DNA from: a virus
Length of the DNA: 26,317 nt
IMG/VR virus record: IMGVR_UViG_3300048833_000734
Span: 1-26,317 of that record
Direction: 5' to 3' (one strand)
Part shown: piece after piece, positions 8,015-23,170 of the stretch
Position numbering within the stretch: position 1 is the first letter of the stretch
Layout of the letters: the number at the start of each line of letters is the position of its first letter
Notes under the pieces: generated by a model
What the model saw: the letters and a program-made list of their open reading frames with translations, nothing else
Databases searched by the model: none
What the model was told of the DNA's origin: nothing
Program-made: the position numbers and the translations under genes

Positions 8015-8029
8015 GTCCCCTGCCCCACC

Positions 8030-8048
8030 GTCAACCACAGTGGTTGAC
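8030..8048. promoter_or_regulatory. perfect 19-bp palindrome between divergent operons
   Basis: GTCAACCAC-A-GTGGTTGAC lies in the 51-bp gap between the ParB-like gene (minus) and the small terminase gene (plus). Each arm places GTTGAC in front of one gene: 17 bases before the ATG at 8066 and 15 bases before the ATG at 8014. It could be an operator for both operons, or two back-to-back copies of the start-associated GTTGAC element. No clear -35/-10 pair is visible around it. Confidence 0.7.
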
Positions 8049-8065
8049 TCGTCCCCAACCTGCGG

Positions 8066-8671
8066 ATGGACCCTGTTTCCCCTGACGTTGCCAAGAAGCT
8101 GCTCTCGCGCGACTTCGCCAACCTGATCGCCCGCGTGCAAAAGGGCGGCAAGCTGACCCGTGCCGAGCGGGCCATGCTGCAAACGATGGCCACCGGCACC
8201 GGAGCGGCCCCAGCCAGCGCAGCCTCCTACGTGGAACTCGCCGTGATCCTCGGCATCACCCGTCAGACGCTCAACACCTGGAAGAAGCGCAAGGACGCCC
8301 CGAAGCCCGCCGCCAACGGCCTGCACGACGTAGCCGCCTGGCGGGAATTCATGCGGCGCAACGACCTCAAGGGCGGCGAACCGGCGACACAGGAATCCGC
8401 CGACATCGAATCCTCGCTCAAGGCGCGCAAGCTGCTCGCAGAGGTCGAGGAACGGGAATTGCGGCTCGGCATCAAGCGCGGCGACTACGTGGCCGTCGAG
8501 GAAGTGCGCCAGGCATGGACCGAGTTCGTTGCGCAGGCAACTTCCATGCTCCGCAAGAAATTCGAACAGGAACTCCCGCCGATTCTCTCGGGCCTCGACG
8601 CCACCGGCATTCAGGAGGAAGCGCGGCGGGCCATCGACGAAGTGTTGACGATCCTCCACCAGGGCGAATGA
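8066..8671 (+). CDS. terminase small subunit, Nu1-like
   Basis: 201 residues. A helix-turn-helix at about 55-77 (VELAVILGITRQTLNTWKKR) fits the DNA-recognition domain of Nu1-type small terminases, which bind the packaging site and recruit the large subunit. A long helical, charged middle (LKARKLLAEVEERELRLGIK) is the usual oligomerisation region, and the C-terminus would contact the large subunit. The gene overlaps the large subunit by ATGA (8668-8671), as in lambda-type packaging pairs. GTTGAC lies 17 bases before the start and no good Shine-Dalgarno sequence is seen. Confidence 0.85.
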   Translation: MDPVSPDVAKKLLSRDFANLIARVQKGGKLTRAERAMLQTMATGTGAAPASAASYVELAVILGITRQTLNTWKKRKDAPKPAANGLHDVAAWREFMRRNDLKGGEPATQESADIESSLKARKLLAEVEERELRLGIKRGDYVAVEEVRQAWTEFVAQATSMLRKKFEQELPPILSGLDATGIQEEARRAIDEVLTILHQGE

Positions 8672-10485
8672 AGACCGTTGAATCAGCCCGCGACAAACTC
8701 ACCCGGATCTGGCGCGATGCCTGGCGACCGCCAGACCGCCGTCCCCCGTGGGCGTGGTGCGAGGACCACATTACCTCGATTCCCTACTCGCCAATCCCCG
8801 GGCGCTTCAGATCGGACAACTCGCCGTGGATGCGCGAACCGATGGAGGCGCTGGTCGATCCACGAATCCGCATTGTCTCGATCATCGCGGCGATCCAGAG
8901 CGGCAAGACCAGCGTCGGTGAACTCGGCCTCGCCCACATCATCGCCAACCATCCCGGCCCAACCCTCTGGCTCGACCAGACCGACGACGACGCGAAGGAC
9001 CAGAGCGAGAGCCGGCTCCAGAAGCTCTTCGACGAATGCCCGCCGGTCCGCTCCCTCTATCCGGCCAACCGCCACAAGAAGCGCGTCGCGACCGTGCATT
9101 TTGCCAACGGCATGACGCTGTGGGTGCTCGGTGCGCACAACAAGACCAACCTTCAGCGGCGATCCATCCGTTGGCTCATTTGTGATGAAACATGGCGGTA
9201 TCCCCAAGGTCACATGGCCGAAGCCGAAGCCCGTGTTACCGCATTCGGCTGGTTGGGCAAATGCCTGTTCATGTCCCAAGGCGGCGAGGAGGACGACGAC
9301 ACACACCGCAAACATGAAACCACCGACATGCGGGTGTGGACCTTTGCCTGCCCGCACTGCCACCACCGCCAACCATTCAAGTGGGAGCAGGTCGAGTGGA
9401 GCAAGGACGCCCGCGACGAAACCGGCGAGTGGGATTTCCAGCGGGTGCGCGACACCACCACGATGACCTGCGCGTCGTGCAACCAAATCTTCGAGGACAG
9501 CGACCGCACGCGCCGCGAACTCAACGCCACCGGCCGCTACGTGGTGACCAACCCGAACGCGCCGAAGGAAAACGCCGGATTCCACTGGAACGCCCTCTGC
9601 GCCATGAGTTGGGGACGACTGGCGGAACTCTACCTCCGCGCCAAGGCTGCCGCCCGCAAAGGCGATGTGAGTTTGATCCAGCAGTTCTATCAAAAGCGTC
9701 TGGCCCTGGCATGGCGCGAATACCTGGAGGACTACAAACTCGACATCGTCCCGGGCGGCTACCTCAAGGGCGAAACCTGGGACGGCGAGGCGGGCGTGGA
9801 CGCTCAAGGGCGGATCGTTCCCGCGGGTGAGCCATCCGTCTGTCCGCTGCGCATCCTCACCGTGGACTGCCAGATGGACCACCTGTTCCTCGTCGTCCGC
9901 GCATGGGCCGAGGACGGATCAAGCCGCCTGATCTGGAACGAGCGCGTGCTGACGTTCTCCGACGTACAATCCGTGCAGGAGCGCTTCGGCATTCACCCGA
10001 ACCTCGTCTTCATCGATGCCGGCCACGCCACCTATGACGTGTATCGCGAGTGTGCGGCCCACGGATGGACGGCCCTCATGGGCGACAAGCGCGCCACGTT
10101 CACCCACAAGGTGAAGGGTCGGAAATCGGTGGAGCGGTTCTATTCGCCACGTCGCAAGGTGGTGCTCGGCCGCGGGCAATCGTGTTCCGTGTTCTATTGG
10201 TCCAACCTCAACATCAAGGACACGCTGGCCCGCCTGCGCCGCAATCAGGACCCGGAAAACGGCCCGGTGTGGGAGGTGCCCGACGACATCGACGAGGACT
10301 ACCTCGCCCAGATGGAAAGCGAGCACCGGATTCGCAAGAACGGCAAGTGGATCTACGAGCGCATCGGATCGCGCCCAAATCACTACTACGACTGCGAGGC
10401 GGAACAGGTGGTGGCCGCCACCATGCTCAAGATCGTGGGTCGGGAGGCATCCGCCCCGGTTGACACCCCGGACGGGGAGCCATGA
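8668..10485 (+). CDS. terminase large subunit, lambda gpA family
   Basis: 605 residues, close to lambda gpA length. The ATPase half has Walker A AAIQSGKTS (74-82), Walker B WLICDET (169-175) and the coupling motif SQGG (203-206). An inserted zinc-ribbon pair is visible as CPHC (228-231) and CASC (268-271), characteristic of the GpA group. The nuclease half begins near LRILTVDCQMD (395-404), with a further acidic site at NLVFIDAG (445-452). The enzyme packages DNA into the prohead and cuts concatemers. The ATG at 8668 is coupled to the small subunit; the reading frame is open further upstream but out of family context. It ends overlapping the small lipoprotein gene. Confidence 0.93.
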   Translation: MKTVESARDKLTRIWRDAWRPPDRRPPWAWCEDHITSIPYSPIPGRFRSDNSPWMREPMEALVDPRIRIVSIIAAIQSGKTSVGELGLAHIIANHPGPTLWLDQTDDDAKDQSESRLQKLFDECPPVRSLYPANRHKKRVATVHFANGMTLWVLGAHNKTNLQRRSIRWLICDETWRYPQGHMAEAEARVTAFGWLGKCLFMSQGGEEDDDTHRKHETTDMRVWTFACPHCHHRQPFKWEQVEWSKDARDETGEWDFQRVRDTTTMTCASCNQIFEDSDRTRRELNATGRYVVTNPNAPKENAGFHWNALCAMSWGRLAELYLRAKAAARKGDVSLIQQFYQKRLALAWREYLEDYKLDIVPGGYLKGETWDGEAGVDAQGRIVPAGEPSVCPLRILTVDCQMDHLFLVVRAWAEDGSSRLIWNERVLTFSDVQSVQERFGIHPNLVFIDAGHATYDVYRECAAHGWTALMGDKRATFTHKVKGRKSVERFYSPRRKVVLGRGQSCSVFYWSNLNIKDTLARLRRNQDPENGPVWEVPDDIDEDYLAQMESEHRIRKNGKWIYERIGSRPNHYYDCEAEQVVAATMLKIVGREASAPVDTPDGEP

Positions 10486-10637
10486 GAACCCGTTATTTCC
10501 TCGCCGCCCTGTCGCTGCTGCTGCCGTCCTGCATCACCCCGCCGATCACCGGTCGCCTTTCCACCACCGACGGCAAGATCAAGGTCTATCCGGACGGTCG
10601 CTTTGAACTCGTCGTCGAACCCCGCAGCGCCAAGTAA
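10482..10637 (+). CDS. small phage lipoprotein, possible Rz1-like spanin part
   Basis: A 51-residue frame whose ATG overlaps the terminase stop (ATGA). GTTGAC lies 17 bases upstream, at 10459-10464. MRTRYFLAALSLLLPSC is a clean type II signal with lipobox LPSC and Cys17 as the lipidation site. The mature part is only 34 residues and includes ITPPITGR and a basic end. Small size, lipid anchor and position right before a peptidoglycan peptidase suggest an outer-membrane spanin (Rz1-like). No inner-membrane Rz partner is visible, so this is tentative. Confidence 0.65.
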   Translation: MRTRYFLAALSLLLPSCITPPITGRLSTTDGKIKVYPDGRFELVVEPRSAK

Positions 10638-10640
10638 GCC

Positions 10641-11081
10641 ATGCCAGCGGAAACATTCAGCGACTGGTTCGATTCCCAGAAATTCCGCCACTTCGGCGCG
10701 GGCGAGTTCGAATCCTACTTCAAGCGCGAGCGCAACGGCGTGAAGAACAGCCCGCCGCCGCGCAAGCTGTGGAAGAACATCTTGCCCACACTCCGCATCG
10801 TGGATGATCTCCGCGAATCGTTCGGCAAACCCTGCCGCATCCTGAGTTCCTACCGTGCGCCCGATTACAACCGTGCCGTGGGCGGTGCCCCGCTCAGCCA
10901 GCACAAGGAGTTCACCGCGCTGGACATCACCATCGACGGCATCAGTCCGCAGCGCGTCTATGACCGGCTGATCGAATGGCGCAAGGCGGGCAAGTTCACC
11001 GGCGGCCTTGGCCTCTATCCGTCGTCGGGCTTCGTTCACATCGATACGCGGGGCCGCAACGCCACCTGGAAAGGCAACTGA
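10641..11081 (+). CDS. M15-family peptidase, probable endolysin
   Basis: 146 residues with the peptidase M15A/M15_3 layout: RILSSYRAPDYNRAVGGAP (66-84), then SQHKEFTALD (86-95), giving zinc ligands His88 and Asp95, and GFVHIDTRG (130-138), giving the last zinc ligand His133. The family cleaves D-Ala-containing peptide bonds in peptidoglycan. There is no signal peptide, as expected for a holin-dependent endolysin. It lies three bases after the small lipoprotein and before the gpW-position gene. That placement is unusual, because lysis genes normally follow the tail genes. A virion-associated wall-degrading role is an alternative. Confidence 0.82.
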   Translation: MPAETFSDWFDSQKFRHFGAGEFESYFKRERNGVKNSPPPRKLWKNILPTLRIVDDLRESFGKPCRILSSYRAPDYNRAVGGAPLSQHKEFTALDITIDGISPQRVYDRLIEWRKAGKFTGGLGLYPSSGFVHIDTRGRNATWKGN

Positions 11082-11084
11082 TTC

Positions 11085-11345
11085 ATGGCCCGCGGACTCT
11101 TCATCACCGGCTTCACGATTTCCGAGGTGCTGGCCATCCAGCAGCGGGCGAAGGAACTGCTGCTCGAAGGCAAGACGATCATGAACTGGAACGACGCGGA
11201 CACCTCCGCCGCCAAGCAGTTCGTCATGCCGGTCGATCAGGTGCTCGACGAATGCGGCCACGCGCTGCGGGTGCTTGATCCCGCCACCTATGGCCGCCCG
11301 CGCAACGTGGTCGTCTCTCAAATTTCCGGATACCTGCCCAAGTGA
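11085..11345 (+). CDS. small head protein in the gpW position
   Basis: 86 residues. The first half is helical (TISEVLAIQQRAKELLLEGK, residues 11-30), the second half contains VDQVLDECGHALRVLDP. Its size and its place immediately before the portal correspond to lambda gpW, the head-completion/connector protein. Sequence similarity to gpW itself is not obvious, so the role rests on position. Its stop overlaps the GTG start of the portal gene. Confidence 0.6.
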   Translation: MARGLFITGFTISEVLAIQQRAKELLLEGKTIMNWNDADTSAAKQFVMPVDQVLDECGHALRVLDPATYGRPRNVVVSQISGYLPK

Positions 11346-12802
11346 ACCGCCTACAGTCCATCGCCCGCCTGCTGCTGCCCCCCGTGCTTGTTCCCAAAGC
11401 ATGGGGTTCGCAGTTTGAGGCTGCCAACTGGTCCCCACGCCGTGGATCTGTGCCGGGGGCATCGCCGACCGATTCCCGCAACGAGCTCACTCCTTCGGTG
11501 CGCACCGAACTGGTGAGGAAATCCCGCTACCTCCACAAGAACTCGGGCTTCGTCCGCGAGTTGGTGGCCAACATGGCGATCTATTCGACAGGCGACGGCA
11601 TCCGCGTCCAGGCGCAATCGCCCGATCCCGAATGGAACCGTGCCGCCGAAGCCTACTTCTCGCTGTGGTCGGCCCGCTGCGAAGTGACGCGGCGGTTCTC
11701 ATTTGAGGAATGCCAGGCGCTCGTCTGCCGCGGCATGGACATCGACGGCGAATACTTCATCCACAAGACCCGCGACCGCGACGGCGAACCACGCATCCAG
11801 ATGCTAGAAAGCCACCGCATCGGCGATGATTTCGGATCGAAGGACACCATCGACGGCATTGGCCTCGACGCCTGGGGTGCGCCTGTCTTCTACCGTGTCC
11901 TGGAAGACGGCAACCAGAAGCGCGACCTGTCGGCCGAATCCGTGCTCCACATCCACGAACCGGAATGGTCGGGAGGTGTGCGCAACCATCCGACGATCCA
12001 GCATTCGATCAACCACATCCTCGACGAGATCGAACTGCTTGCCCTGGAGAAACACGCGGTCAAGGACAATGCCGACGTGTCCCGCGTCTTGAAAACGGCC
12101 CGCGGTGAGTTGGACGACAACGGCGACTTCGTGGTGGGCGGCAATGCCGGCGCGGGTGAACAAAGCGATCCGGTGTCACTCCAGAAGATCGTCGGCGGCA
12201 AGCTGGTGGCACTCAAACCAGACGAATCGCTCGATAGTTTCCAATCGAACCGCCCATCGCCAACATTCACCGGCTTCCTCGAACACCTGCGGCGTGACTC
12301 CGCGCTTGGAATGATCCCATTCGAGTTCGCAGCGGATTCGAGCAAGGTGGGCGGTGCGGGCGTGCGGCTCATCGTCGCCAAGGCCGACCGTCGCTTCTCG
12401 TTCCGCCAGATGATCCTTGAACGCCGCCTGATCCGGCCGGTGTGGACCTACGTGATCGGCGATGCCATCAGCCGCGGCCTGCTACCCGCCGTGGAAGGCT
12501 GGTGGAAAATCTGCACGGTGCCACCGAAGCGCGTGACCGTGGACGCCGGACGCGAAGCCCAGCAGAACCGCGCCGACGTGGAGATGGGACTCAAGACCCT
12601 ATCAGACCACTTCCAGGAACTCGGTGCCGACTTCGGCGAGGAAATCGAACGCCGTGCCAGTGATGCGAAGCTCATTCTCGAAACCGCGGAGAAGCACGGT
12701 GTGCCGATCGAGATGCTGTGGAAGCCTTCCGGCTCCGCGTTGACACCACCGACCGGGCGTGAACCCGGTTCTTCAACATCGCGAGTGGCTGATTCAGCCT
12801 GA
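11342..12802 (+). CDS. portal protein, lambda gpB family
   Basis: 486 residues from the GTG at 11342. Portal-type features run in order: an N-terminal region with LVRKSRYLHKNSGFVRELV (about 57-75), a block reading EAYFSLWSARCEVTRRFSFE with CRGMDIDGEYFI, the stretch IQMLESHRIGDDFG, and the C-terminal region with RLIRPVWTYVI and a helical, disordered tail. Twelve copies of such a protein form the DNA entry ring and bind the terminase. The C-terminus overlaps the protease gene by 44 bases, as lambda B and C do closely. The low-complexity end (PPTGREPGSSTSRV) lies in that overlap. Confidence 0.9.
   Translation: MNRLQSIARLLLPPVLVPKAWGSQFEAANWSPRRGSVPGASPTDSRNELTPSVRTELVRKSRYLHKNSGFVRELVANMAIYSTGDGIRVQAQSPDPEWNRAAEAYFSLWSARCEVTRRFSFEECQALVCRGMDIDGEYFIHKTRDRDGEPRIQMLESHRIGDDFGSKDTIDGIGLDAWGAPVFYRVLEDGNQKRDLSAESVLHIHEPEWSGGVRNHPTIQHSINHILDEIELLALEKHAVKDNADVSRVLKTARGELDDNGDFVVGGNAGAGEQSDPVSLQKIVGGKLVALKPDESLDSFQSNRPSPTFTGFLEHLRRDSALGMIPFEFAADSSKVGGAGVRLIVAKADRRFSFRQMILERRLIRPVWTYVIGDAISRGLLPAVEGWWKICTVPPKRVTVDAGREAQQNRADVEMGLKTLSDHFQELGADFGEEIERRASDAKLILETAEKHGVPIEMLWKPSGSALTPPTGREPGSSTSRVADSA
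12739..12744 (+). promoter_or_regulatory. GTTGAC element before the S49 protease start
   Basis: GTTGAC ends 14 bases before the GTG at 12759 and supports this unusual start over the next in-frame ATG (codon 20). It lies inside the portal coding region, so it is not simply part of an intergenic spacer. Confidence 0.5.
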
Positions 12803-14033
12803 TGCCCTGCAATCCATGGCCGCCTCCCTGCGGTCGCTGGTGGACAAGGGCGGTTTCATGCCCCGGCAGGCATCGGAGAGTTCCCTGCTCTCCGTCGAGG
12901 ACGGCATCGGCGTGGTGGCCATCGAAGGCCCGATCCTCCGCAAGCCCGACCTCTTCGCCCGAGTGTTCTTCGGGGCCACTTCATCGGAAGACATCACCGC
13001 GGCCATGCGCGAAGCGGGCGAACGTGACGACATCAAGGCCGTCTTTCTCGACATCGACTCGCCCGGCGGCACGGTGGCCGGCACCCCGGAACTCGCCGCG
13101 GCCGTGGCATCGCTCAACGCGAAGAAGCCGGTCTATGCGTTCTCTTCCGGCCTCATGTGCTCCGCCGCCTACTGGGTGGCCAGCCAGGCCCGCGCGATCT
13201 ACGCGACGCCATCCGCACAGGTCGGCTCCATCGGCGTCGTGCAGGCGGTGATCGACAACAGCGCGGCCCTCGACCGTGCGGGGCTCAAGGTGGAGGTGTT
13301 TTCCGTCGGCAAATACAAGGCGATGGGCGCTCCTGGCACGCCGCTAACCGACGACCAGCGCGAGTTGATTTCCTCAAACCTCGCCGAGATCGCCCGCGAC
13401 TTCCATGCGGCGGTGCTGGCGAAAGGCCGTGCGATCCCCGCCGAAGCGATGGAAGGCCAGACGTTCAGCGGCAAGCAGGCCCAGCGCCACAACCTCGCCG
13501 GAATGGTCGCGGATCGTGCCGAAGCCATGCGCCGCCTGCGCGTCTATCACGCCGCATCGGTTGACACGGGATCACGGGCAATGGACACCACCATCGAAGA
13601 CCAACTCGCCCAGGCCCGCGCCGATCTCGCCAACCTCCAGCGGGACCATCAGGCCCAAACCGAACTTCTGACAGAGGAATCGGCCACTGTCACCTCGTTG
13701 CGCAGCGAAGTGCAACTGCTCACCGCGGAAATCGAAACTCTCAAGTCCGAGCGCGACACCGCCTCCGCCGAAGTCGCCACGCTGCGCAAGCAGGTCACTG
13801 AACTTCAGGCGTCGCAGACCGACTTCGACAAGCGCCTGCAACTTGAAGTCGCCCGGGTCGTCGCCTCCACCGGCACCACAATGCCTGCCCGCGTCACCCC
13901 CGCAGGCGACCACGTTCAAGCCGCCGACCTCCACGCGCAGTTCGCCGCCATCACTGACCCGGCCGAGCAGACCGCCTTCTGGCGGAAACTCACCCCTCAG
14001 CAACAAGCCATGATTCTCAAACACCAAGCCTGA
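12759..14033 (+). CDS. S49-type prohead protease fused to scaffold (lambda C-like)
   Basis: 424 residues. Residues 45-265 form an S49/SppA-like serine protease: GVVAIEGPI (51-59), FLDIDSPGGTV (96-106), the nucleophile region GLMCSAAYW (131-139) with Ser135, AQVGSIGVV (153-161) and GKYKAMG (184-190) with Lys187 as the likely general base. From about 275 to 355 the sequence is a coiled coil with regular heptads of Leu, Ala and Glu, then a short C-terminal domain ending QQQAMILKHQA. The enzyme matures the prohead and the C-terminal part acts as scaffold, as in lambda C/Nu3. The next gene is the major capsid protein. Confidence 0.9.
   Translation: MNPVLQHREWLIQPDALQSMAASLRSLVDKGGFMPRQASESSLLSVEDGIGVVAIEGPILRKPDLFARVFFGATSSEDITAAMREAGERDDIKAVFLDIDSPGGTVAGTPELAAAVASLNAKKPVYAFSSGLMCSAAYWVASQARAIYATPSAQVGSIGVVQAVIDNSAALDRAGLKVEVFSVGKYKAMGAPGTPLTDDQRELISSNLAEIARDFHAAVLAKGRAIPAEAMEGQTFSGKQAQRHNLAGMVADRAEAMRRLRVYHAASVDTGSRAMDTTIEDQLAQARADLANLQRDHQAQTELLTEESATVTSLRSEVQLLTAEIETLKSERDTASAEVATLRKQVTELQASQTDFDKRLQLEVARVVASTGTTMPARVTPAGDHVQAADLHAQFAAITDPAEQTAFWRKLTPQQQAMILKHQA
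13560..13565 (+). promoter_or_regulatory. GTTGAC element before the nested scaffold start
   Basis: GTTGAC lies in the middle of the protease gene, 15 bases before an in-frame ATG at 13581. It is the same element found before other late-gene starts, and here it marks an internal start exactly where the scaffold coiled coil begins. Confidence 0.5.
13581..14033 (+). CDS. nested scaffold protein (lambda Nu3-like)
   Basis: A predicted 150-residue product starting at Met275 of the protease frame (MDTTIEDQLAQARAD) and sharing its stop. The product would be almost entirely the coiled-coil scaffold without the protease, the same arrangement as lambda Nu3 inside gene C. Support comes from the domain boundary coinciding with the ATG and from the GTTGAC element 15 bases before it. 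Production of the separate protein is inferred. Confidence 0.6.
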   Translation: MDTTIEDQLAQARADLANLQRDHQAQTELLTEESATVTSLRSEVQLLTAEIETLKSERDTASAEVATLRKQVTELQASQTDFDKRLQLEVARVVASTGTTMPARVTPAGDHVQAADLHAQFAAITDPAEQTAFWRKLTPQQQAMILKHQA

Positions 14034-14042
14034 TAGAACACC

Positions 14043-14936
14043 ATGTCCAATACACTCACCAACATCAAAGACATCAAGGTCGCGCAACGGGCGCTCATGC
14101 CCTTCACCGCGAACCTGATGCCCGTGTCCTCGTTCTCGACCAACTTCGGTCCCCAACAGGCCGACAAGGGCGACACCGTGCGCGTCCCGCTGGTCGGTGC
14201 CCCATCCGGGTCGAGCGACTTCGCTGGTGACTACACCGCCAACGCCGATTCCACGGTCACCACCATTCCGGTGACGCTCAACCGCCACAAGTTCAAGACG
14301 GTGCATGTCACCGCCCGCGAGGCGTCCGAGACGGCCATGGACGTTCTTGACACCCTGGTGGAAACCGCCGCCCAGCAACTCGCCCAGGACGTGCTGCTCG
14401 ACATCATGTCGGTCATCACGCTGGCGAACTTCGGCGCTCCCCTTCCCGCCGTTGCCGCGACCAACTTCGACTACAAGAAGGTCCTCAACATCCGCGAGGA
14501 GTGCGGCAAGGTGAAGATGCCCGCCTCGCCCCGTTCTCTCGTGCTCGACGCCGGGCACTACACCAACCTGCTCGCTGACGACGTGGTGGCCAAGAGCTTC
14601 AACATGAACCTCAGCGCCCCGGGCGTCACCGAAGGCCTCATCAAGCGGCTCGCCGGATTCGACCTCCACGAAACCGTGGTGATCCCCGCCGATCACGCCG
14701 AGAAGCTCGTCGGCTTCGCCGTCCATCCGAGCGCCGTCGCGGTGGCCATGCGCTACCTCCAACCGGTCGCCGAATACCAGCAGTCGGGCGCGGTCACCGA
14801 TCCGCAAACCGGAATGACCTTCGGCTACCTGCGCTTCACCGACACCCGCGCCAACAAGGTGTTTGTCACCATCGAGTGCCTCTACGGCTTCACGGTGGGC
14901 AAGAACGACGCCCTCAAGCGCATCGTCAAACCCTGA
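14043..14936 (+). CDS. major capsid protein
   Basis: 297 residues, placed directly after protease/scaffold. Features fit a HK97-fold coat of the P22-like kind: an N-terminal helix, an early extended region (DTVRVPLVGAPSGSSDF), a long helix with AMDVLDTLVETAAQQLAQDV, a segment reading PRSLVLDAGHYTNLLADDVV and a final beta-rich part with FVTIECLYGFTVGKNDALKR. No signal or membrane segment is present. The leader is TAGAACACC without Shine-Dalgarno or GTTGAC, although this is expected to be the most abundant protein. Confidence 0.85.
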   Translation: MSNTLTNIKDIKVAQRALMPFTANLMPVSSFSTNFGPQQADKGDTVRVPLVGAPSGSSDFAGDYTANADSTVTTIPVTLNRHKFKTVHVTAREASETAMDVLDTLVETAAQQLAQDVLLDIMSVITLANFGAPLPAVAATNFDYKKVLNIREECGKVKMPASPRSLVLDAGHYTNLLADDVVAKSFNMNLSAPGVTEGLIKRLAGFDLHETVVIPADHAEKLVGFAVHPSAVAVAMRYLQPVAEYQQSGAVTDPQTGMTFGYLRFTDTRANKVFVTIECLYGFTVGKNDALKRIVKP

Positions 14937-14963
14937 GCCATTAACCTCTAGCAGAACATCGCC

Positions 14964-15479: not shown

Positions 15480-15511
15480 TCTTCACCGTTTGGGTGGTTG
15501 TGGTTGGCATG

Positions 15512-15549
15512 CACCCTCTCTCGGGAAACCGGGAGGGGGTGTTTCATTT
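15512..15549 (+). terminator. Rho-independent terminator after the capsid genes
   Basis: A 13-bp stem, CACCCTCTCTCGG / CCGGGAGGGGGTG, with two G-U pairs closes a GAAA tetraloop (15512-15541). A T-rich tract (TTTCATTT) follows. It separates the head genes from the head-tail and tail genes and would reduce read-through, favouring high capsid protein output. Confidence 0.8.
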
Positions 15550-15566
15550 GACAGTCGTGCCATGGC

Positions 15567-15878: not shown

Positions 15879-16677
15879 CTATGCCGTCCGGTTCACCGCC
15901 AAGCTCAAGGGGGCCTTCAACGTGGCCCGCCTGCTGCGGCGACATCCCGAAAAGGTGGGGCGGACGCTCGAATCCCTCGTGAAACAGGAAGCCCGCGGCC
16001 TGGCCGTGGAACTCGCCCGCAACACCCGGCCGTTCGGGTTCTCGGAAAAGGCGAAACAGCGCGGGGAATTCTCGGTGGCGCAGGACATCGGTCTGGTTTA
16101 CGCCATCCCCTCTGAGGCCTATGCGGAAATGAGGAAATCCGACCCCAAGGCCGCTGACAGGTTCTGGGCCAACATCCAGAACAAGCGGTTCTCGCGCGCG
16201 GAGAATGCCCTGCGCAATTCCAGTTCGGGGTGGAAGGATCTCTCGGTCGGGCGTCTTGATCCGAAACTCCATCACGCGAGCCGAAATATCCGGGGTGAGG
16301 TGACGCGCACGAAACCCGCGCAGGTCGTCACCAGCCCCAAGGCGCTCGACAACTACATCGCCCGCCGGAAGAAGAACGTCGGATTCGCCAAGGGATCATG
16401 GATCAACGCGGCGAAATCCATCGGCGGCCGGGTGCGTGGTGCGGCGCAATGGGTCACCAGGCACAAGAAATCCCCGGGAAGCGCGGTGGTGAAAACAGGC
16501 GACAAGGCATCCGTCACGCTGGTCAACCGCCTCGACTACATCGAACAGGTGAGCACCTACAAGGGCATCAACCTCGCCCTGCAAGTTGCGGCGGGACGCC
16601 TTCGCAAGGCGCTGTCTGCCTCGCTGCAAAAGATCAACGAGCGCACGAGCCGATCCATCAATCGGCGTGCCGGTTGA
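15871..16677 (+). CDS. basic tail/neck protein of unknown function
   Basis: 268 residues from the ATG at 15871, which overlaps the stop of the previous gene. The protein is strongly basic, with repeated Arg/Lys patches (LLRRHPEKVGRTLE, ARRKKNVGFAKGS, RTSRSINRRAG), and looks helical at both ends. The middle contains YAIPSEAYAEMRKSDPKAADR. It could be a tail-completion or minor tail protein, or bind DNA at the neck. No family is recognised. It is a plausible real gene because of its coupling and of the GTTGAC-marked gene that follows. Confidence 0.65.
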   Translation: MNDYAVRFTAKLKGAFNVARLLRRHPEKVGRTLESLVKQEARGLAVELARNTRPFGFSEKAKQRGEFSVAQDIGLVYAIPSEAYAEMRKSDPKAADRFWANIQNKRFSRAENALRNSSSGWKDLSVGRLDPKLHHASRNIRGEVTRTKPAQVVTSPKALDNYIARRKKNVGFAKGSWINAAKSIGGRVRGAAQWVTRHKKSPGSAVVKTGDKASVTLVNRLDYIEQVSTYKGINLALQVAAGRLRKALSASLQKINERTSRSINRRAG

Positions 16678-16678
16678 C
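16673..16678 (+). promoter_or_regulatory. GTTGAC element deciding the 16696 start
   Basis: GTTGAC includes the stop of the preceding gene (TGA, 16675-16677) and lies 17 bases before the ATG at 16696. That is the same spacing seen at four other late starts. It favours 16696 over a GTG at 16681, which would be only two bases away. Confidence 0.5.
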
Positions 16679-16695
16679 GAGTGACCGATGGCAAG

Positions 16696-17121
16696 ATGCC
16701 CAATCTGATCGAAGACCGCCTATCGTCACTGCTGGCCGACTGGATCGACAGCCACCACCCCGAAGGGTTTCCCGAGGCGATCCCGGTTCACGTCGCCCGC
16801 CGGGATGAAATCCGCACGCGGCCCTGCGTGGTCCTCAACCCGGCTGAATCCAAGCCGGTCCCGGGCATGCCACACACCGCTCGTCTGAAGCTCGATGTGC
16901 ATCTGTTTTCCCAGGTGGACGACACGCCAGCCGACGATCACGCCACATGGGCGGGCAAGCTCGTGACTCTTCTGCGCGGCAAAGCGGCGATCCAGGCGGA
17001 TCTGGATTCGGACACCTTCGTCCTGCACGACCTGATCGAGCGGGAAAGCACCACCACGCCGGACGAATCCCGCGGCCGGGAAACCGTGCTGTCCTACGAG
17101 GCGGTGGTGTCGGCGGTCTGA
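16696..17121 (+). CDS. putative tail terminator/minor tail protein
   Basis: 141 residues starting MPNLIEDRLSSLLADWIDSH. The layout of an N-terminal helix, a beta strand (RPCVVLNPAE), a central strand with LKLDVHLFSQVDD, a helix around HATWAGKLVTLLRG and a final strand (ETVLSYEAVVSAV) fits the small alpha/beta tail-terminator family (lambda gpU-like). It stands between the head-tail genes and the tube-like gene, where such a protein belongs. A GTG at 16681 would add five residues. Confidence 0.55.
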   Translation: MPNLIEDRLSSLLADWIDSHHPEGFPEAIPVHVARRDEIRTRPCVVLNPAESKPVPGMPHTARLKLDVHLFSQVDDTPADDHATWAGKLVTLLRGKAAIQADLDSDTFVLHDLIERESTTTPDESRGRETVLSYEAVVSAV

Positions 17122-17148
17122 TGCGGTTGACACGCCGCCCGCGGTCAA

Positions 17149-17523
17149 ATGGCCGCGACTTTCCTTGGCACCACCGGCAACTGGGGCATCCCCCAGGACG
17201 AGGCTGGCATCATCATCACCGACCTTTCGTTCGACTACTCCAACCAGGAGAAGCTGGTTCTGGACAAAGGCGGCGAGATCCAGGGCATCGCGCTCTATCA
17301 GGAGAAGATCGAAATCAAGATCTCGGGCCTTGTCGCCAAGAACTCGCCGTTCAGCGGCAAGATCGGTGCCGCGCTCACGCTGGCCAATGTGATCCCGCTT
17401 CACCTCCACGCCACCAGCGGCGGCATCACGATCATCAAGCAGATCAGCCGCTCCCTCAACAACGAGGACTTCGAGAAGATCGAAATCACCGCCACCTACT
17501 ATCCCTTCGTCACGGCCGCCTGA
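17149..17523 (+). CDS. putative major tail tube protein
   Basis: 124 residues, mostly beta-structure (GIIITDLSFDYSNQ, KIEIKISGLV, FEKIEITATYYPFV), with no Cys and no membrane segment. It lies upstream of the tail chaperone pair and tape measure, where the tube gene usually is. It is shorter than lambda gpV (246 residues), so it may be a minimal tube protein. GTTGAC is 17 bases before the ATG. Confidence 0.55.
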   Translation: MAATFLGTTGNWGIPQDEAGIIITDLSFDYSNQEKLVLDKGGEIQGIALYQEKIEIKISGLVAKNSPFSGKIGAALTLANVIPLHLHATSGGITIIKQISRSLNNEDFEKIEITATYYPFVTAA

Positions 17524-17546
17524 ACCCTTCCGCCAGAGATACCAAC

Positions 17547-17948
17547 ATGAACGCCATATCCCACGTTTCCTCCACCGCCACCAGCAACACCTGCCTAGCC
17601 GCCGCACTGACGGCCGTGGGCATCCCGCTCGCCGAAAAGCCGTTCGTCCGAGTCGTTGGCGATGGCATCCGCGGCGAACGCACCGTCTGGTTCTTCGAGC
17701 CGCAAAGCCAATGCGGCAAATTCCAGACCAAGGCGCTCATCGAGGCATGGAACGACGACGCCTGGCACCTGGCCAACCCGGAGCATCCGTTCGCCTACAT
17801 CAAATGCGCGCTCATGAACCGCCAGCGCCTGGTGGACAAGGTGAAGCAGGACGTGCCGCTCGCCTGCGTGAAGCGCCGGGGCAAGGTCGCTTTCATCCCG
17901 CTCGATGCATCGCCCGCCACTGAAGACCTATTCCTTCGCCACCTCTGA
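17547..17948 (+). CDS. hypothetical protein before the tail chaperone
   Basis: 133 residues from the ATG at 17547. It starts MNAISHVSSTATSNTCLAAA and contains ERTVWFFEPQSQCGKFQTKA, HPFAYIKCALMNRQRLVD and VKRRGKVAFIPLD. Four Cys residues are spread along the chain without a zinc-binding spacing. No family is recognised. It sits between the tube candidate and the G-like chaperone, so a tail or chaperone role is possible. It lies four bases before the next gene. Confidence 0.6.
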   Translation: MNAISHVSSTATSNTCLAAALTAVGIPLAEKPFVRVVGDGIRGERTVWFFEPQSQCGKFQTKALIEAWNDDAWHLANPEHPFAYIKCALMNRQRLVDKVKQDVPLACVKRRGKVAFIPLDASPATEDLFLRHL

Positions 17949-17952
17949 AGCC

Positions 17953-18372
17953 ATGGACGACACCGAACGCCAGAAACTCCTCTCCGCCGCCTTCCATGAT
18001 ATGGAGACCATCGTTGGCGGCTACGCCATGCGCCCGCTGTCGTTGGCCAGTTACGACGTGCTGCTACGCACCGGCAACCCGCTCGTGAAGGGGGAAATGC
18101 TTAAGGACGGGACGCCTGAGTTCACCTCGGCGATCATGGGCTTCGTCTTCACCCACTGCGCCCCGTGGCCCGAGGTGGTGCGTGCGTCTTTCAACGACCA
18201 AGGATTCCGCGAATCCGCCCTGATCTTCTGCGGTGGCCTCACCCCTGCCGATTTCAAAACCGCGTTCAAGCGCCTGGAGGAACAGAGCCGGGAACTGGAG
18301 GCGGCCCAAGTCGAAACCATGGGGGACACCGGCGGAAAAAAGCCCCTCCCTGCGACGAGCCCGGCTTCATAG
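17953..18372 (+). CDS. tail assembly chaperone, lambda G-like
   Basis: 139 residues, helical, located directly before the tape measure gene. It starts MDDTERQKLLSAAFHDMETI and contains FTHCAPWPEVVRASFNDQGF and LEEQSRELEAAQ. Near its end the codons GGA AAA AAG contain the slippery heptamer A AAA AAG. Ribosomes that stay in frame stop at 18372; those slipping by -1 would continue into the T-like extension. The G and GT proteins hold the tape measure protein unfolded during tail assembly. Assignment rests on position plus the frameshift signal. Confidence 0.7.
   Translation: MDDTERQKLLSAAFHDMETIVGGYAMRPLSLASYDVLLRTGNPLVKGEMLKDGTPEFTSAIMGFVFTHCAPWPEVVRASFNDQGFRESALIFCGGLTPADFKTAFKRLEEQSRELEAAQVETMGDTGGKKPLPATSPAS
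18336..18342 (+). other. -1 programmed frameshift site (A AAA AAG)
   Basis: The heptamer is in the correct phase with the chaperone frame (GGA AAA AAG) for a -1 slip. The -1 frame is open from there to 18596. A small hairpin, CGGCT-TCAT-AGCCG (18362-18375), lies 19 bases downstream, which is further than usual, so it may not be the stimulator. Confidence 0.7.
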
Positions 18373-18596
18373 CCGCCCAGGTATTCGCCGTCGCCGCCGA
18401 GACCGGCTGGACCGAGGAGCGGATCCTGTTCATGCCGCTGGCCCGGCTGTCTCAATACCAGCACTGCCTGTTGCGGCGGAATGGAGTGCGGACAAACTGG
18501 AGTAACTCAAGTCCGGACGGTCCTTCCGTGGGAGAGCAGCTTGCGCAGCTTCGAATCCAGTGGCGTCAGTCAGTTGACTCCACCCCCGGCGCATGA
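18342..18596 (+). CDS. T-like extension made by -1 frameshift (GT fusion)
   Basis: 84 residues in the -1 frame, without a start of its own. They contain FIAAQVFAVAAETGWTEER, the short stretch RLSQYQHCLLRRNG and an end reading QLRIQWRQSVDSTPGA. The fusion would have 130 chaperone residues plus these 84, about 214 in all. The extension fills the space exactly to the tape measure ATG (ATGA overlap at 18593-18596), as in lambda GT and many siphophages. Without frameshifting this stretch would be an unexplained 220-base gap. Confidence 0.7.
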   Translation, partial: APPCDEPGFIAAQVFAVAAETGWTEERILFMPLARLSQYQHCLLRRNGVRTNWSNSSPDGPSVGEQLAQLRIQWRQSVDSTPGA

Positions 18597-20353
18597 GCGC
18601 CCTGACCGTCACCCTTGGAGCCGACATCACTGCCTTGAGGCGGGCCATGGCGGGGGCCACCGAACTGGTGGGAGCCTCTGCCAAGCGAATGAGTAAACTC
18701 ACCGGCGCGGGACTGGCGGGACTCGGCAAAGGTGGCGCGGCGGCATTGAGCAAAGGTTTCTCGGTCGCGGGCACGGCACTCAAGGCAGGAATCGGAACCG
18801 CACTGGCAGGTGGAGCGGCGGCGATGGGTGTCGGTGTGAAGGCGGTGAATGCCGCTGCCGATTTCGAGCAGACCAAAGTCGCGTTCGCCACCATGATCGG
18901 CGATGCGGGCAAGGCCGAACAAACTCTGGCCAAGCTCCGCGAACTCGGTGCCCAGACGCCGTTTGAATTTCCCGAACTGGCCGACGCTGGCCGGAAGCTG
19001 ATCGCCTTCGGTGAATCCGCGGACTCGGTGCCCGAAACCATGCGGCGAATCGGCGACGTGTCCGCGGGCGTGCAGGCACCGGTCAATGAGATCGCGGAAC
19101 TCTACGGCAAAGCGCGGGTGCAGGGGCGGCTCTTCGCCGAGGACATCAACCAGCTCACCGGCCGGGGCATTCCAATCATCCAGGAACTCGCCAAGCAGTT
19201 CGGCGTGTCGGATTCGCAGGTGAAGAAGCTCGTGGAATCAGGGCAGGTCGGTTTCCCCAACATCGAGCGGGCGTTCATCGACATGACCTCGCAGGGCGGG
19301 AAGTTCGCGGGCATGATGGAGGCCCAGAGCAAGACGACCTCGGGCCTGTTCTCCACCCTCAAGGACACGATCAACGAGGTGTTCCTCACGCTCGGCACGC
19401 CGATCAACGACGCCATCCGTCCCCTGGTCGAACAGGCCATCGGACTTGTGCAAAAACTCACGCCTCTCGCGGCGGAGGCAGGCAAGCGGGTGAAGGAGGC
19501 GGTCATGTTCGTGATCGCCGCGTTCAAGAGCGGTCAGCTTCTGGATCTCGTCACCTCCGGGTTGAAGCTCGCCTTCGCAGTGGGCGTGAATGCCCTGGTC
19601 AACGGTTTCCGCGTGGCCATTGAGTTTTTCTGGAACCTGCTCACCGATGGCGCGATGTGGAAAAGCCTCGGCACGACATTGCTCGGACTGGCAGCAGGCT
19701 TCGGCGCGGCTTTGCTCAATGCGTTTCAAACGCCCATCGTCTATCTTCAGGCGGGCATGGAGTGGGTGATGGGCCATCTGCTCAAGGGACTGCTCAAGAT
19801 CCCTGGCATGAGCGACCTGCTCGGCTTCGACGAAAGTGCGGTGGAAACCGACTTCGGCCGAATCCTCAAGGACCGGCGGGAAACCGGCGCGGATCTCTTC
19901 GGCATGAACTTCAAGGGGATGGCCGAAGAAGCACAGGGACTGCTCGGCAAAGGTGCTCCACAACTCGGCGAACGGGTGGCGGCAGCGGCCAAGAAGGCGG
20001 GCGAAACCAGCGGCAGCGAGCTGATCGACACCAGTGGCCTGCGGGACAGTTTCGGCAAGGTGGTGGCCTCCATCCGCGACACGATGCCCAAGCCTGAGGA
20101 GGTGAAGCAGGCGGCCACCGCGGCGGCCAACGTCACGACCGGCAACACGCCCGCAGTCGCCAAGCCGGCAGCCTCAACACTCGCGCCCATCGTCACCTCG
20201 CTGGGCAAGGTGGGCGGCGGCGGGTATTCGTCCGGTGCTCTTGATGCGCAACGAGAAAATAACCGGCTCACCAACGAGACGAACCGGATCCTGCGCGACA
20301 TGAGCGAGCGGATGAAACCGGGCACCGGCACCTACGTCCCGGCGTTCGGTTGA
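18593..20353 (+). CDS. tail tape measure protein
   Basis: 586 residues. The N-terminus is typical of tape measures: MSALTVTLGADITALRRAM, then an Ala/Gly-rich, helical region. Residues about 90-255 match the conserved tape-measure unit (FEQTKVAFATMIGDAGKAE, PFEFPELADAGRKLIAFGE, GRGIPIIQELAKQFGV). Hydrophobic segments follow at about 300-390, then a long helical C-terminus. It sets tail length and forms part of the DNA channel, which points to a long-tailed virion. GTTGAC lies 14 bases before the ATG. Confidence 0.88.
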   Translation: MSALTVTLGADITALRRAMAGATELVGASAKRMSKLTGAGLAGLGKGGAAALSKGFSVAGTALKAGIGTALAGGAAAMGVGVKAVNAAADFEQTKVAFATMIGDAGKAEQTLAKLRELGAQTPFEFPELADAGRKLIAFGESADSVPETMRRIGDVSAGVQAPVNEIAELYGKARVQGRLFAEDINQLTGRGIPIIQELAKQFGVSDSQVKKLVESGQVGFPNIERAFIDMTSQGGKFAGMMEAQSKTTSGLFSTLKDTINEVFLTLGTPINDAIRPLVEQAIGLVQKLTPLAAEAGKRVKEAVMFVIAAFKSGQLLDLVTSGLKLAFAVGVNALVNGFRVAIEFFWNLLTDGAMWKSLGTTLLGLAAGFGAALLNAFQTPIVYLQAGMEWVMGHLLKGLLKIPGMSDLLGFDESAVETDFGRILKDRRETGADLFGMNFKGMAEEAQGLLGKGAPQLGERVAAAAKKAGETSGSELIDTSGLRDSFGKVVASIRDTMPKPEEVKQAATAAANVTTGNTPAVAKPAASTLAPIVTSLGKVGGGGYSSGALDAQRENNRLTNETNRILRDMSERMKPGTGTYVPAFG

Positions 20354-20371
20354 CGTCGCGCCCCGGCCAAG

Positions 20372-21094
20372 ATGCCGAGACACATCGCAATTCAACCGGG
20401 CCGACTCTACCCGCAGCCGGACTACTCGGTGGCGGTGGACCGCGAGGGCAAATGGACCGCCACCCAGGTCTTCCTCTGCCACCGCAATTCCATCACCCAG
20501 GTGATGCCGAGGCCCGGGACGCCCCATCCGGACATCCCGTTCATCTGGGTGGACAATGCCACCGCCCAGGTCAGCGAGGGCGACATCGCCCAGATCACCT
20601 GCAACTACGCGGGCGCGGAGAACACCACCAACGACCCCAACAAGACCAGCTACACGCTCGGCCTGTCGCTCTCCGAGGAACCGCTGCTCTCCCACAAGAA
20701 GTTCCGCGATCTCGACGAGGAGGAGCTTGAGGCGCTCCAGGCGATCATCAGCGGCAAGGACAAGGACGGGTCCGGCACGCCCTACAAGGACAAGGTCACC
20801 AGCACACTCGGCAAGAAGGCACTCGCCAAGATCCAGCGCGGCCAGACTTCCTACTACTCGCCGAAGGTCGTCTGGCGGCAATCCACCGTGCGCCGTGCCT
20901 CGGCCGCCAGTTCCGACGTGCGCAAGATCGGCCAGATCGACCAACCGGATGGTCGGCAGCCGAATCTATCGGACGGTCGCACCTGGCTGCTCAACAGCGT
21001 CACCCAGACCCAGGAAGGCAACTCCTACCGCATCGAGCGCGAGTGGATTTCATCCGACGCGGGAGGTTGGGACACCGACATCTACAACCTCTGA
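20372..21094 (+). CDS. putative tail-tip protein
   Basis: 240 residues, starting MPRHIAIQPGRLYPQPDYSV. An extended, beta-rich N-terminal half is followed by a charged helical stretch (LDEEELEALQAIISGKDKDG) and a C-terminal part ending RIEREWISSDAGGWDTDIY. It occupies the place of the distal tail proteins right after the tape measure. No known family is recognised. GTTGAC lies 17 bases before the ATG, overlapping the tape measure stop. Confidence 0.5.
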   Translation: MPRHIAIQPGRLYPQPDYSVAVDREGKWTATQVFLCHRNSITQVMPRPGTPHPDIPFIWVDNATAQVSEGDIAQITCNYAGAENTTNDPNKTSYTLGLSLSEEPLLSHKKFRDLDEEELEALQAIISGKDKDGSGTPYKDKVTSTLGKKALAKIQRGQTSYYSPKVVWRQSTVRRASAASSDVRKIGQIDQPDGRQPNLSDGRTWLLNSVTQTQEGNSYRIEREWISSDAGGWDTDIYNL

Positions 21095-21101
21095 AATCCC
21101 A

Positions 21102-21701
21102 ATGCGCCTGCCGTCCAAGAAACGCCCCGGCAATCCGATCCTCGCCAAGGACTGGAACCTGCTCATCGACGCGCTGGAAGCACGCACCCCGCGGCCATCG
21201 GCGGGACTGGAACTCGTGTTCACATCCGGCGGATTCGCCTACCGGGCACGCAGGTCGGCGGCTGGCGGTGGAGTGGCCGGCGCACCGTGCCCGTTTGGCG
21301 AGGTCATCACGTTCAAAGATGGCGAGACCAACAAGACCGGCATCCGCGGCGGCGTGGTCTATGCGGGAGACAAGGTTTGGAACGTCGCTCACAAGGCACT
21401 CAATCTCGAAGCATCGGGCACGTTCAAAGTCTATCTGGAAGTCGGCGTCACCGCCAACGTCGAGGATGGTGTCCTGCTCCCCGGCCTCAAAACCTCGACC
21501 GCCCCCGAATGGAAGCATGTCGGCGGCGACGGCAACTATCCCGACCAGGACATCCCGGAAGCGCCGTCCGGCACCGGCAAGGCGATCATCGCTGCGGGCC
21601 TGCTCACCATCGAAGACGAAACGGCCACCTTCGAACGGGCGGGCTGTGGGGCGATCACCATCACGCACTGCCCGGGCACGCTCGGCCACACCCGCATCTG
21701 A
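21102..21701 (+). CDS. putative minor tail protein
   Basis: 199 residues from the ATG at 21102. The start MRLPSKKRPGNPILAKDWN is followed by a helical LLIDALEA segment and then beta-rich sequence (FKVYLEVGVTANVEDGVLL, AIIAAGLLTIEDETATFE). It resembles small tail-tip or baseplate-hub-associated proteins of beta type, but no family can be named. It is seven bases after the preceding gene and four before the next, so it is part of the same unit. No Shine-Dalgarno sequence is visible. Confidence 0.55.
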   Translation: MRLPSKKRPGNPILAKDWNLLIDALEARTPRPSAGLELVFTSGGFAYRARRSAAGGGVAGAPCPFGEVITFKDGETNKTGIRGGVVYAGDKVWNVAHKALNLEASGTFKVYLEVGVTANVEDGVLLPGLKTSTAPEWKHVGGDGNYPDQDIPEAPSGTGKAIIAAGLLTIEDETATFERAGCGAITITHCPGTLGHTRI

Positions 21702-21705
21702 CCCA

Positions 21706-22998
21706 ATGCCCATCGAAACGCTCGACGACTGGAACGACCGGCTGGCCGCCTGCGGGTGCTGCCCGATGCCGGATTGTCCCGCTCCCTCGCTGCAAAGCCA
21801 GCACGTCTTTCGCTCGCTCTGCGCGATGACCGCGAGCCCGTCCGAATATCACATCAACACCCCGAGCCCCAACTTCGATCCGGCCAACGGTGGTGTGCCG
21901 ATCAAGGAGGCGAATGTCGCCTACCGGACGATGCGGGTCACGGACTCGACATCCCACAGCGACGAATGGGGCAGCAGCTCGGACAGCTACGAGGTGACGG
22001 TTTCCAAAAATCCGGAAACCGCCGAGGACAACCGGGTGGGGACACCGGCCTACATCTGCGCACGGACCCGCGTGGACGGATCGTGGTCGTCCAGTTACAC
22101 GACCAAGGACGAGGACGGCAACGTCACCGAAACCGGGACTGACAACGGGACATGGACCAACGAACTCGCCACGCCATTTGGTGCCACGCCCGGCACCGGC
22201 ACGTTCACGTGGACCATCTACGACGAGGACGGGGGCGTCAGCGACAGCGGTTCAGGCGAGTCCAACCGAACTTGGGGACCATCCTGGTTCTGGTTCCTCA
22301 ATGCCGAAACCATCACGACCACGGTCGAGCAGGCGGGGCTCAAACACGAGGTTACCGGCGGTGGCCGCAATCTCGTGGTGCAGTTCGAGGACCCGCACAC
22401 CGACCAGACCGCCTTCGCCGCCATCACCACGCCGGACCCACCGGACGACCAATGGTTCGGCGTCGGCGGGCTAGCGGTTGTCGCCTCGTTCGTGGTCGGA
22501 CGTGCCGACGAGCCGAACAACGACATGCGGGTCACCGGCGCGGTGCATCGGATCGGCCGTTACCGCTGGCGCATCCCGTCCTCCCACAAGGGACCGAAGT
22601 TCAAGCTCTGGTGGGACGAGGGGTTTTTCTCGAAGGCATGGCTCGCTTGGAAGGCCCGCGACGACGCGCACAAGGCATGGCAGAAGGCGCACGACGAATG
22701 GGAGCAATCGCAGGAAAATCCGAAACCGCCCGAGCCGCAGGAACCGGAAGCACCGGGCGAGGAACCGGCCAAGCCGTCGCTGACGCCGAAGTCGTTCGTC
22801 TGGACCGGTCCGGGCAACGCCGACGATTCGAACCACGATTCCTGGTTCTCGCCCTATTCATCCATCGTGCGGATTCCATCGGCCACTGAAGGCCAGGTGG
22901 AGATCTGCAACGTCCGCTACCTCTGCTACGAGTCGAAGTTCGGAGCCAAGCCCCAGGTCCATGCAGGATTTCGCATCTACAACCCCGACGAAACCTGA
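21706..22998 (+). CDS. putative tail-tip or host-contact protein
   Basis: 430 residues from the ATG at 21706. A Cys-rich N-terminal patch (CGCCPMPDCPAP, about 16-27) could bind metal or form disulfides. The middle is Asp/Ser/Thr/Gly-rich and beta-forming (TKDEDGNVTETGTDNGT, TWTIYDEDGGVSDSGSGE), like extracellular phage tail proteins. A charged helix with AWLAWKARDDAHKAWQKAH and a Pro/Glu linker (ENPKPPEPQEPEAPGEEP) precede the C-terminal beta part. Function in tail tip or receptor contact is inferred from position and composition. Its end overlaps the next small gene by 38 bases. Confidence 0.6.
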   Translation: MPIETLDDWNDRLAACGCCPMPDCPAPSLQSQHVFRSLCAMTASPSEYHINTPSPNFDPANGGVPIKEANVAYRTMRVTDSTSHSDEWGSSSDSYEVTVSKNPETAEDNRVGTPAYICARTRVDGSWSSSYTTKDEDGNVTETGTDNGTWTNELATPFGATPGTGTFTWTIYDEDGGVSDSGSGESNRTWGPSWFWFLNAETITTTVEQAGLKHEVTGGGRNLVVQFEDPHTDQTAFAAITTPDPPDDQWFGVGGLAVVASFVVGRADEPNNDMRVTGAVHRIGRYRWRIPSSHKGPKFKLWWDEGFFSKAWLAWKARDDAHKAWQKAHDEWEQSQENPKPPEPQEPEAPGEEPAKPSLTPKSFVWTGPGNADDSNHDSWFSPYSSIVRIPSATEGQVEICNVRYLCYESKFGAKPQVHAGFRIYNPDET

Positions 22999-23170
22999 CC
23001 CGTTCGCGCCGTTACCGGATGCCCCGCCACGTCCACGGGCAGCAAAGGTCCGCGTGAAACTCAAGGGCGCTGCCGACGGCCCGGTCTATCAGGGCACCGA
23101 ACTGGTCATCCCATGCCCGACCTGCGGCGGCCGGTTGACAGCCGACCACGGACGTGAAGCTCCACGTTGA
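22961..23170 (+). CDS. small CxxC protein, possibly coding
   Basis: 69 residues starting MQDFASTTPTKPDPFAPLPD, Pro- and Lys-rich, with one CPTCGG motif. It overlaps the previous gene by 38 bases and the next by 17. Without it, 155 bases between 22998 and 23154 would be empty in an otherwise packed operon. A single CxxC is half a zinc site, so a dimer or a disulfide would be needed. The frame could also be chance. Confidence 0.4.
   Translation: MQDFASTTPTKPDPFAPLPDAPPRPRAAKVRVKLKGAADGPVYQGTELVIPCPTCGGRLTADHGREAPR

Follow-up and report, generated by a model that had tools for sequence, protein, structure and literature searches.

The stoperators of mycobacteriophage L5 are 13-bp sites that bind the phage repressor, at no set spacing from start codons. 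The Start-Associated Sequences of cluster K mycobacteriophages (SAS/ESAS; 13 bp, GGGATAGGAGCCC) contain a Shine-Dalgarno core and lie 3 to 7 bp before gene starts in the non-structural half of the genome, and their function is unknown (PMC3203893). In phage phiEco32, the sigma factor gp36 serves single-element promoters ahead of middle and late genes, of the A+T-rich sequence tAATGTAtA, with transcription start sites mapped 6 to 8 bp downstream (PMC8948821). Here we describe phages that carry a short element, DTTGAC, at a nearly fixed distance ahead of the start codons of particular gene classes, that exchange it for stop-coupling and whose element is absent from the same position in sampled host genes. 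No earlier description of GTTGAC in such a role turned up in text searches of the open-licence literature.

The DNA analysed (the window) is an entire IMG/VR virus record of 26,317 bp. Its plus-strand block encodes small and large terminase, an M15 endolysin, a lambda-family portal, an S49 head maturation protease, a P22-like major capsid protein and a tape measure protein. Its large terminase has close relatives in hundreds of viral contigs as well as in bacterial genomes (Akkermansiaceae, Verrucomicrobiaceae, Prosthecobacter and Chthoniobacter), several of them in prophages with an integrase, and the terminase of Akkermansia prophages is still ca. 57% to 61% identical. The element-bearing phages are a clade of temperate tailed phages with hosts among the Verrucomicrobiales. 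In one Chthoniobacter genome (G012, C60 247112-248901), the large terminase match is broken into overlapping segments, possibly by a frameshift or a sequencing error.

A sequence-only reading of the window had listed ten plus-strand copies of GTTGAC between 8043 and 23134 with gaps to the start codon of 17 nt (five cases), 14 nt (three), 15 nt and 18 nt, and we found every position and gap to be as claimed. The same is true of a TTTGAC variant at 15547-15552, 14 nt ahead of 15567, and of a minus-strand copy at 8035-8030, 15 nt ahead of the ParB-like ATG at 8014, which together with the terS copy forms GTCAACCACAGTGGTTGAC (8030-8048; Table 1). Four copies (8644, 10459, 12739 and 13560) do lie within the upstream coding region, and element-bearing starts do in general lack a strong Shine-Dalgarno site. 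Further plus-strand copies that had been noticed on the left exist as well, at 1349 and 3680 rather than at 1347 and 3686. The copy at 16673 fits an ATG at 16696, where a mechanical start caller chooses GTG 16681 instead. By raw count the excess is weak (21 GTTGAC on both strands versus 14.05 expected, a number reached in 7 of 100 shuffles); the signal is positional.

Table 1. Element copies and associated features in the window, and large proteins of the variable slot in related genomes
Feature	Record	Position	Strand	Start codon	Gap (nt)	Remarks
GTTGAC of divergent ParB-like gene (7235-8014)	window	8030..8035	-	ATG 8014	15	
GTTGAC of terS	window	8043..8048	+	ATG 8066	17	TerS homologs carry it at -20 to -24
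GTTGAC of terL	window	8644..8649	+	ATG 8668	18	within end of terS
GTTGAC of 51-aa gene (10482-10637)	window	10459..10464	+		17	within end of terL; 8/8 homologs
GTTGAC of S49 head maturation protease	window	12739..12744	+	GTG 12759	14	inside portal gene
GTTGAC of nested in-frame start in protease gene	window	13560..13565	+	ATG 13581	15	
Strong terminator-like hairpin	window	15511..15542	+			T-tract continues into TTTGAC element
TTTGAC variant of gene 15567-15878	window	15547..15552	+		14	TTTGAC or ATTGAC in 17/18 homologs
GTTGAC of gene ending at 17121	window	16673..16678	+	ATG 16696	17	14/14 homologs
GTTGAC of gene 17149-17523	window	17126..17131	+		17	16/16 homologs
GTTGAC of tape measure gene (18593-20353)	window	18573..18578	+		14	
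GTTGAC of gene 20372-21094	window	20349..20354	+		17	
GTTGAC of gene 23154-24338	window	23134..23139	+	GTG	14	
Variable-slot large protein	G013	30625-33234				FGE-sulfatase and MBG domains
Variable-slot large protein	G015	14616-19745				
Variable-slot large protein	G016	20159-31900				

Starts were called from codon usage and start-codon type only, blind to upstream sequence. With such motif-blind starts, GTTGAC ranks first of all 4096 hexamers at positions -26 to -18, both in the window (6 matches) and in 80 related viral contigs (L001-L080), where 252 matches stand against 1.9 expected and are all confined to -24 to -20. The proposed enrichment near starts therefore held in relatives, these numbers rule out a chance origin, and phages that have diverged from one another still retain the element. 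GTTGAC was found at -26 to -18 of no gene in samples of four host chromosomes, and DTTGAC at -24 to -20 of none of 489 genes in a larger sample of one of them (G001), which rules out a host-wide signal. In all relatives taken together, 521 GTTGAC copies lie on the late strand, and 477 of them are followed by ATG or GTG at +20 to +24, compared to 16.3% at random positions; the remaining 44 form small groups of which the biggest comprises five related loci. Removal of near copies leaves 130 sites ahead of genes from 21 unrelated protein families, the safer figure given that related phages are not independent and within-family counts overstate the evidence. Unlike this motif-blind test, the within-family comparisons reported below use starts that were partly corrected with motif guidance, which could bias single cases.

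The core is best written as DTTGAC with a preference of G over T over A at its first position, as TTTGAC (35 versus 0.6 expected) and ATTGAC (23 versus 1.6 expected) are enriched while further substitutions are at or close to background, and the base directly after it is C in none of 130 sites. From core to start there are 14 to 18 nt of ca. 80% G+C, C-rich at first and then G-rich with few T, in which a G-run 10 to 12 nt past the core tracks the position of the core more than that of the start codon. No second conserved box was seen from -45 to +28 around the core, and no conservation between -45 and the core. The starts served are ATG (86%) or GTG and never TTG. Akkermansia prophages have TTTGAC at the late sites that were read, at the same spacing and in several cases with the same GGG. 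Compared with a Shine-Dalgarno site (the CCUCC complement at about -13 to -7), the element differs in sequence and position, and there is no match to the 3' end of host 16S rRNA (GGATCACCTCCTTTCTA). Two RNA structures were considered and rejected, namely a hairpin within the spacer, which is weak (z of 0.4 to 2.1 per class) and not general, and a hairpin with the core in its loop, an idea taken from CCCTCAGCCG-TTTTGACAAG-CGGCTGAGGG of Akkermansia that finds no covariation elsewhere (flank-to-spacer stem z 0.4).

The genes that carry the element, in six longer viral records and in three prophages, are those of the head-tail block together with a terminal 63-aa gene, the divergent ParB-like gene, the epimerase gene and the integrase gene; it is almost wholly missing from the replication module (Prim-Pol/PolA, Pif1-type helicase, PDDEXK nuclease, amidoligase and a clamp-loader-like ATPase). 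Among non-redundant late genes, it precedes only 1 of 38 that start 1 to 10 nt past the upstream stop, 14 of 22 that start 11 to 20 nt past it and 21 of 45 that overlap the upstream gene by 1 to 4 nt; the capsid gene has it in 0/31 cases. This pattern recurs within gene families. Where the endolysin gene overlaps the large terminase gene with no gene in between, it carries the element in 16/16 cases (one further entry, the seventeenth, being a fused gene call); where it follows 3 nt after the stop of an inserted small gene, it does so in 0/16, and the inserted gene carries the element instead. In the arrangement of the window, this is the endolysin gene at 10641, which has the element when the 51-aa gene is absent. 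Likewise, an 86-aa gene has the element in 36 of 39 cases at a distance of at least 15 nt, in 0/13 at 3 to 7 nt and in 0/4 in one lineage where it overlaps and shows a Shine-Dalgarno-like GGAAAGGAAA. Genes that persist after loss of the element have usually acquired stop-coupled starts. This switching within families implies that stop-coupling or a Shine-Dalgarno site can stand in for the element, a rule that is explained by a promoter as well as by a translation signal.

The epimerase gene lies near a variable slot with very large, differing proteins of 869, 1709 and 3913 aa (Table 1), which are probably host-facing fibres. In L171 (7787-9506), an amidoligase gene (PF12224) adjoins a glutamine-amidotransferase-like gene (PF13522) in a leftward module, a possible small peptide-ligation cassette, and the window has probable homologs of the pair on its minus strand, at about 2635-4519. 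The protein encoded at 24352-25773 of the window appears by eye to fuse a glycosyltransferase-like half to a P-loop sulfotransferase-like half and has no PHROG match.

The S49 protease gene carries the element twice. Its own start has it in 37 of 38 homologs, always at -20, and a second copy precedes an in-frame ATG at 13581 from which the 150 C-terminal residues (13581-14033) would be made; this nested unit lies in frame and always at -21 in 32 distinct homologs. The codons at the nested site are GTT GAC in 37/37, with GTT making up only 15% of Val codons in these genes, a conservation that bespeaks selection on nucleotides. In phage lambda, the scaffold Nu3 is nested in frame at the C-terminal part of the protease C. 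The 150-residue product sits where the lambda arrangement places the scaffold, and the nested start would by its position yield a scaffold-like protein. At two relatives (L105 7427 and L103 9075), ATT takes the place of the scaffold ATG at the same spacing and an ATG follows 15 nt further, so either an ATT start or a shifted start is possible there.

Upstream of the post-capsid element, strong terminator-like hairpins end 5 to 7 nt before DTTGAC and their T-tract is part of TTTGAC in at least nine phages; besides the window we found this arrangement in G013, G014, G015, L087, L096, L101, L117 and L097, and at 15 nt in G018. The Chthoniobacter prophage L119 has a second terminator abutting an element, that of the protease gene, and this hairpin (GATAATCGTTTCGGCACGATTATC) is exactly repeated in it, just upstream of the DTTGAC starts of terS and the protease gene (9513 and 14615).

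The divergent region between terS and the ParB-like gene measures 46 to 56 bp in 15 relatives and consists essentially of two head-to-head units. We considered a palindromic operator at 8030-8048 and rejected it, since the arms lie 2 to 13 nt apart in relatives with no conservation of the exact palindrome, as expected of merely two divergent units. Further upstream of the terS unit, the sequence is otherwise unrelated between phage groups. Other phages have a repressor-like gene inserted in this region with its own TTGACA-N19-TAGTCT-like promoter, and no sigma70-like promoter was found in the window from 7200 to 26317. As to a promoter hidden in the opposing gene, synonymous conservation is mildly raised over the first 16 codons of ParB and the first eight of TerS, a rise that is not specific to the class with short divergent regions.

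Akkermansia is described as scarce in Shine-Dalgarno sites with its anti-Shine-Dalgarno sequence intact (PMC10783764), and one sampled host shows no Shine-Dalgarno peak, its inner genes being C-rich and closely coupled. In the same host, first genes have TANNNT at -12/-13 in 14 of 330 cases (ca. 3.6 expected), a modest leaderless signature whose peak was sharper in a first, smaller sample. In the Verrucomicrobia phage P8625 (L166), TTGAC precedes the ATG of several genes by ca. 36 nt and a -10-like box precedes it by a few nucleotides, which suggests leaderless mRNAs; with TTGAC at about -36, P8625 was rejected as a carrier of the DTTGAC element.

A candidate reader of the element is a 183-aa protein with a C-terminal helix-turn-helix (HTH; weak Sigma70_r4 match with E 0.019, phrog_686 with E 0.00017), whose gene adjoins replication polymerase or helicase genes. 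It is encoded on the terL contig in 9/9 host genomes searched, in three prophages of G001 and in every longer viral record that extends over the replication module; the gene is missing from the window, a fragment in which this module is absent. In Akkermansia prophages the protein diverges to 27%, and this divergence would, together with their TTTGAC, be as expected for a co-evolving phage reader. Its structure was modelled with low confidence (pLDDT 65), and the model had no significant fold match. A search of seven phage records that did detect its positive control revealed no Sigma70 region 2 domain, the controls stayed silent in a search for T7-type single-subunit polymerases, and none of the phage proteins scanned was recognised as ribosome-associated. 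On the strength of its co-occurrence, we infer that the HTH protein may bind the element and is possibly its reader.

Judging from sequence patterns, we give about even chances to DTTGAC being the core of a phage-class-specific promoter that would act on the DNA and give near-leaderless mRNAs. A phage protein, possibly the HTH protein, would direct host RNA polymerase to DTTGAC, and transcription would begin at the start codon or a few nucleotides upstream of it, perhaps at the G-run 10 to 12 nt after the core, to make each late mRNA nearly leaderless. Since Shine-Dalgarno sites are rarely used by these hosts, translation of a late gene would start either at the 5' end of its own mRNA with its short leader or, by re-initiation, directly behind an upstream stop, so that late genes without stop-coupling, including the nested scaffold, would tend to carry their own element; the divergent ParB-like gene, the epimerase gene and the integrase gene would be served in the same way. 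A promoter placed at leaderless distance would, in hosts of this kind, have just the fixed spacing that is observed. The restriction to gene classes (late, integrase, ParB-like and epimerase genes, with the replication module excluded) argues for this promoter, which also accounts for the abutting terminators and the divergent regions of 46 to 56 bp better than a translation signal does. Also in its favour are the lack of a sigma70-like promoter found from 7200 to 26317, the leaderless signature of one host, the near absence of the element at starts 1 to 10 nt past a stop, the G-run that tracks the core, and the co-occurrence and divergence of the HTH protein. Against it speak the single conserved box, the failure to detect a sigma region 2 domain in seven records, the poor model of the HTH protein, a G+C-rich spacer that is unfavourable for DNA melting, the start codon at the right distance of nearly every copy, as a translation element also predicts, and the genes overlapping by 1 to 4 nt, which would normally be coupled and often keep the element (21/45). 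The main and less probable rival is a translation-initiation element, in which DTTGAC on the mRNA would lie where the 30S footprint ends upstream and be bound by a phage-encoded or phage-modified ribosome factor; it might then replace the Shine-Dalgarno site for late cistrons without stop-coupling, the nested one included. The tight spacing of 14 to 18 nt fits this well, as do the presence of one unit per uncoupled cistron even at 4-nt overlaps and at the nested scaffold, the exchange within a gene family for stop-coupling or, in one lineage, for a Shine-Dalgarno-like site, the near absence of late-strand copies without a start codon, the G+C-rich spacer with no promoter box seen, and the retained spacing in L103 and L105 with ATT at the place of the scaffold ATG. 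Yet a translation element leaves unexplained the terminators that enter the element and the short divergent regions without another promoter. Against it also stand the limitation to some gene classes and the absence from host genes (0/489), and neither a covarying hairpin around the element, nor a match to the host 16S 3' end, nor a ribosome-associated phage protein among those scanned was found.

Of the readings offered from sequence alone (a signal for translation, a site for RNA processing or for a regulator, or a -35-like element), the first remains a live rival. RNA processing, with a phage endoribonuclease that cuts at GTTGAC to leave short-leader mRNAs and upstream hairpins that protect 3' ends, would account for the short fixed leaders and the hairpins, but we consider it improbable: GTTGAC without a start on the sense strand inside late genes is not strongly avoided (13 versus 18.5 in synonymous shuffles, z -1.4; antisense z -1.8), and a hexamer cutter would therefore destroy its own mRNAs, nor was a candidate nuclease identified. 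Operators or stoperators, at which a phage repressor would silence prophage genes as in mycobacteriophage L5, suit temperate phages with short one-directional sites near starts and the head-to-head pair at 8030-8048, yet a roadblock needs neither a start codon exactly 14 to 18 nt downstream nor absence from stop-coupled genes, and we regard this explanation as very unlikely. Hardly any weight is left for an ordinary sigma70 -35 element (TTGACA) or chance. The core does equal the -35 consensus, and one host and phage P8625 show TTGAC at about -36, but here it lies at -20 to -24 with no -10 box at 16 to 18 nt, and the sigma70 geometry is excluded because a start site 35 nt downstream of TTGAC would fall inside the open reading frame; chance is at odds with the enrichment given above. 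The earlier claim that the distance is too short for an ordinary promoter hence stands for sigma70 promoters; with a non-ordinary, near-leaderless promoter the distance is compatible.

In hosts that seldom use Shine-Dalgarno sites, tens of phages own a compact mark for the starts of their late genes. If it is a promoter, it would be a late promoter at leaderless distance without an A+T-rich box, and if it acts in translation, a non-Shine-Dalgarno signal with its own reader. For annotation, the element helps to choose likely starts (such as ATG 16696 and GTG 12759) and brings nested genes to light (such as the scaffold at 13581). Like the stoperators of L5, it recurs in a temperate phage as numerous short sites that point in one direction and lie close to gene boundaries. 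With the leaderless-type promoters of the sampled Verrucomicrobia host and P8625 it shares the word TTGAC and a fixed distance to the start codon, but those have TTGAC at about -36 and TANNNT at -12, about 6 nt before ATG, whereas TTGAC lies at -20 to -24 here and there is no TANNNT box. The closest promoter precedent, by analogy, is the single-element late promoter of phiEco32, which likewise has one short conserved element ahead of middle and late genes and no -35 box; our element differs by its G+C-rich downstream sequence, its fixed start-codon distance and the lack of a detected sigma region 2. The closest described kind overall are the Start-Associated Sequences of cluster K mycobacteriophages. 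Unlike these, DTTGAC has 6 bp, stands 14 to 18 nt away, is without a Shine-Dalgarno core and marks mainly structural and late genes, but both are short, asymmetric sequences in one orientation upstream of many starts, kept across related phages and gene families and absent from their hosts.
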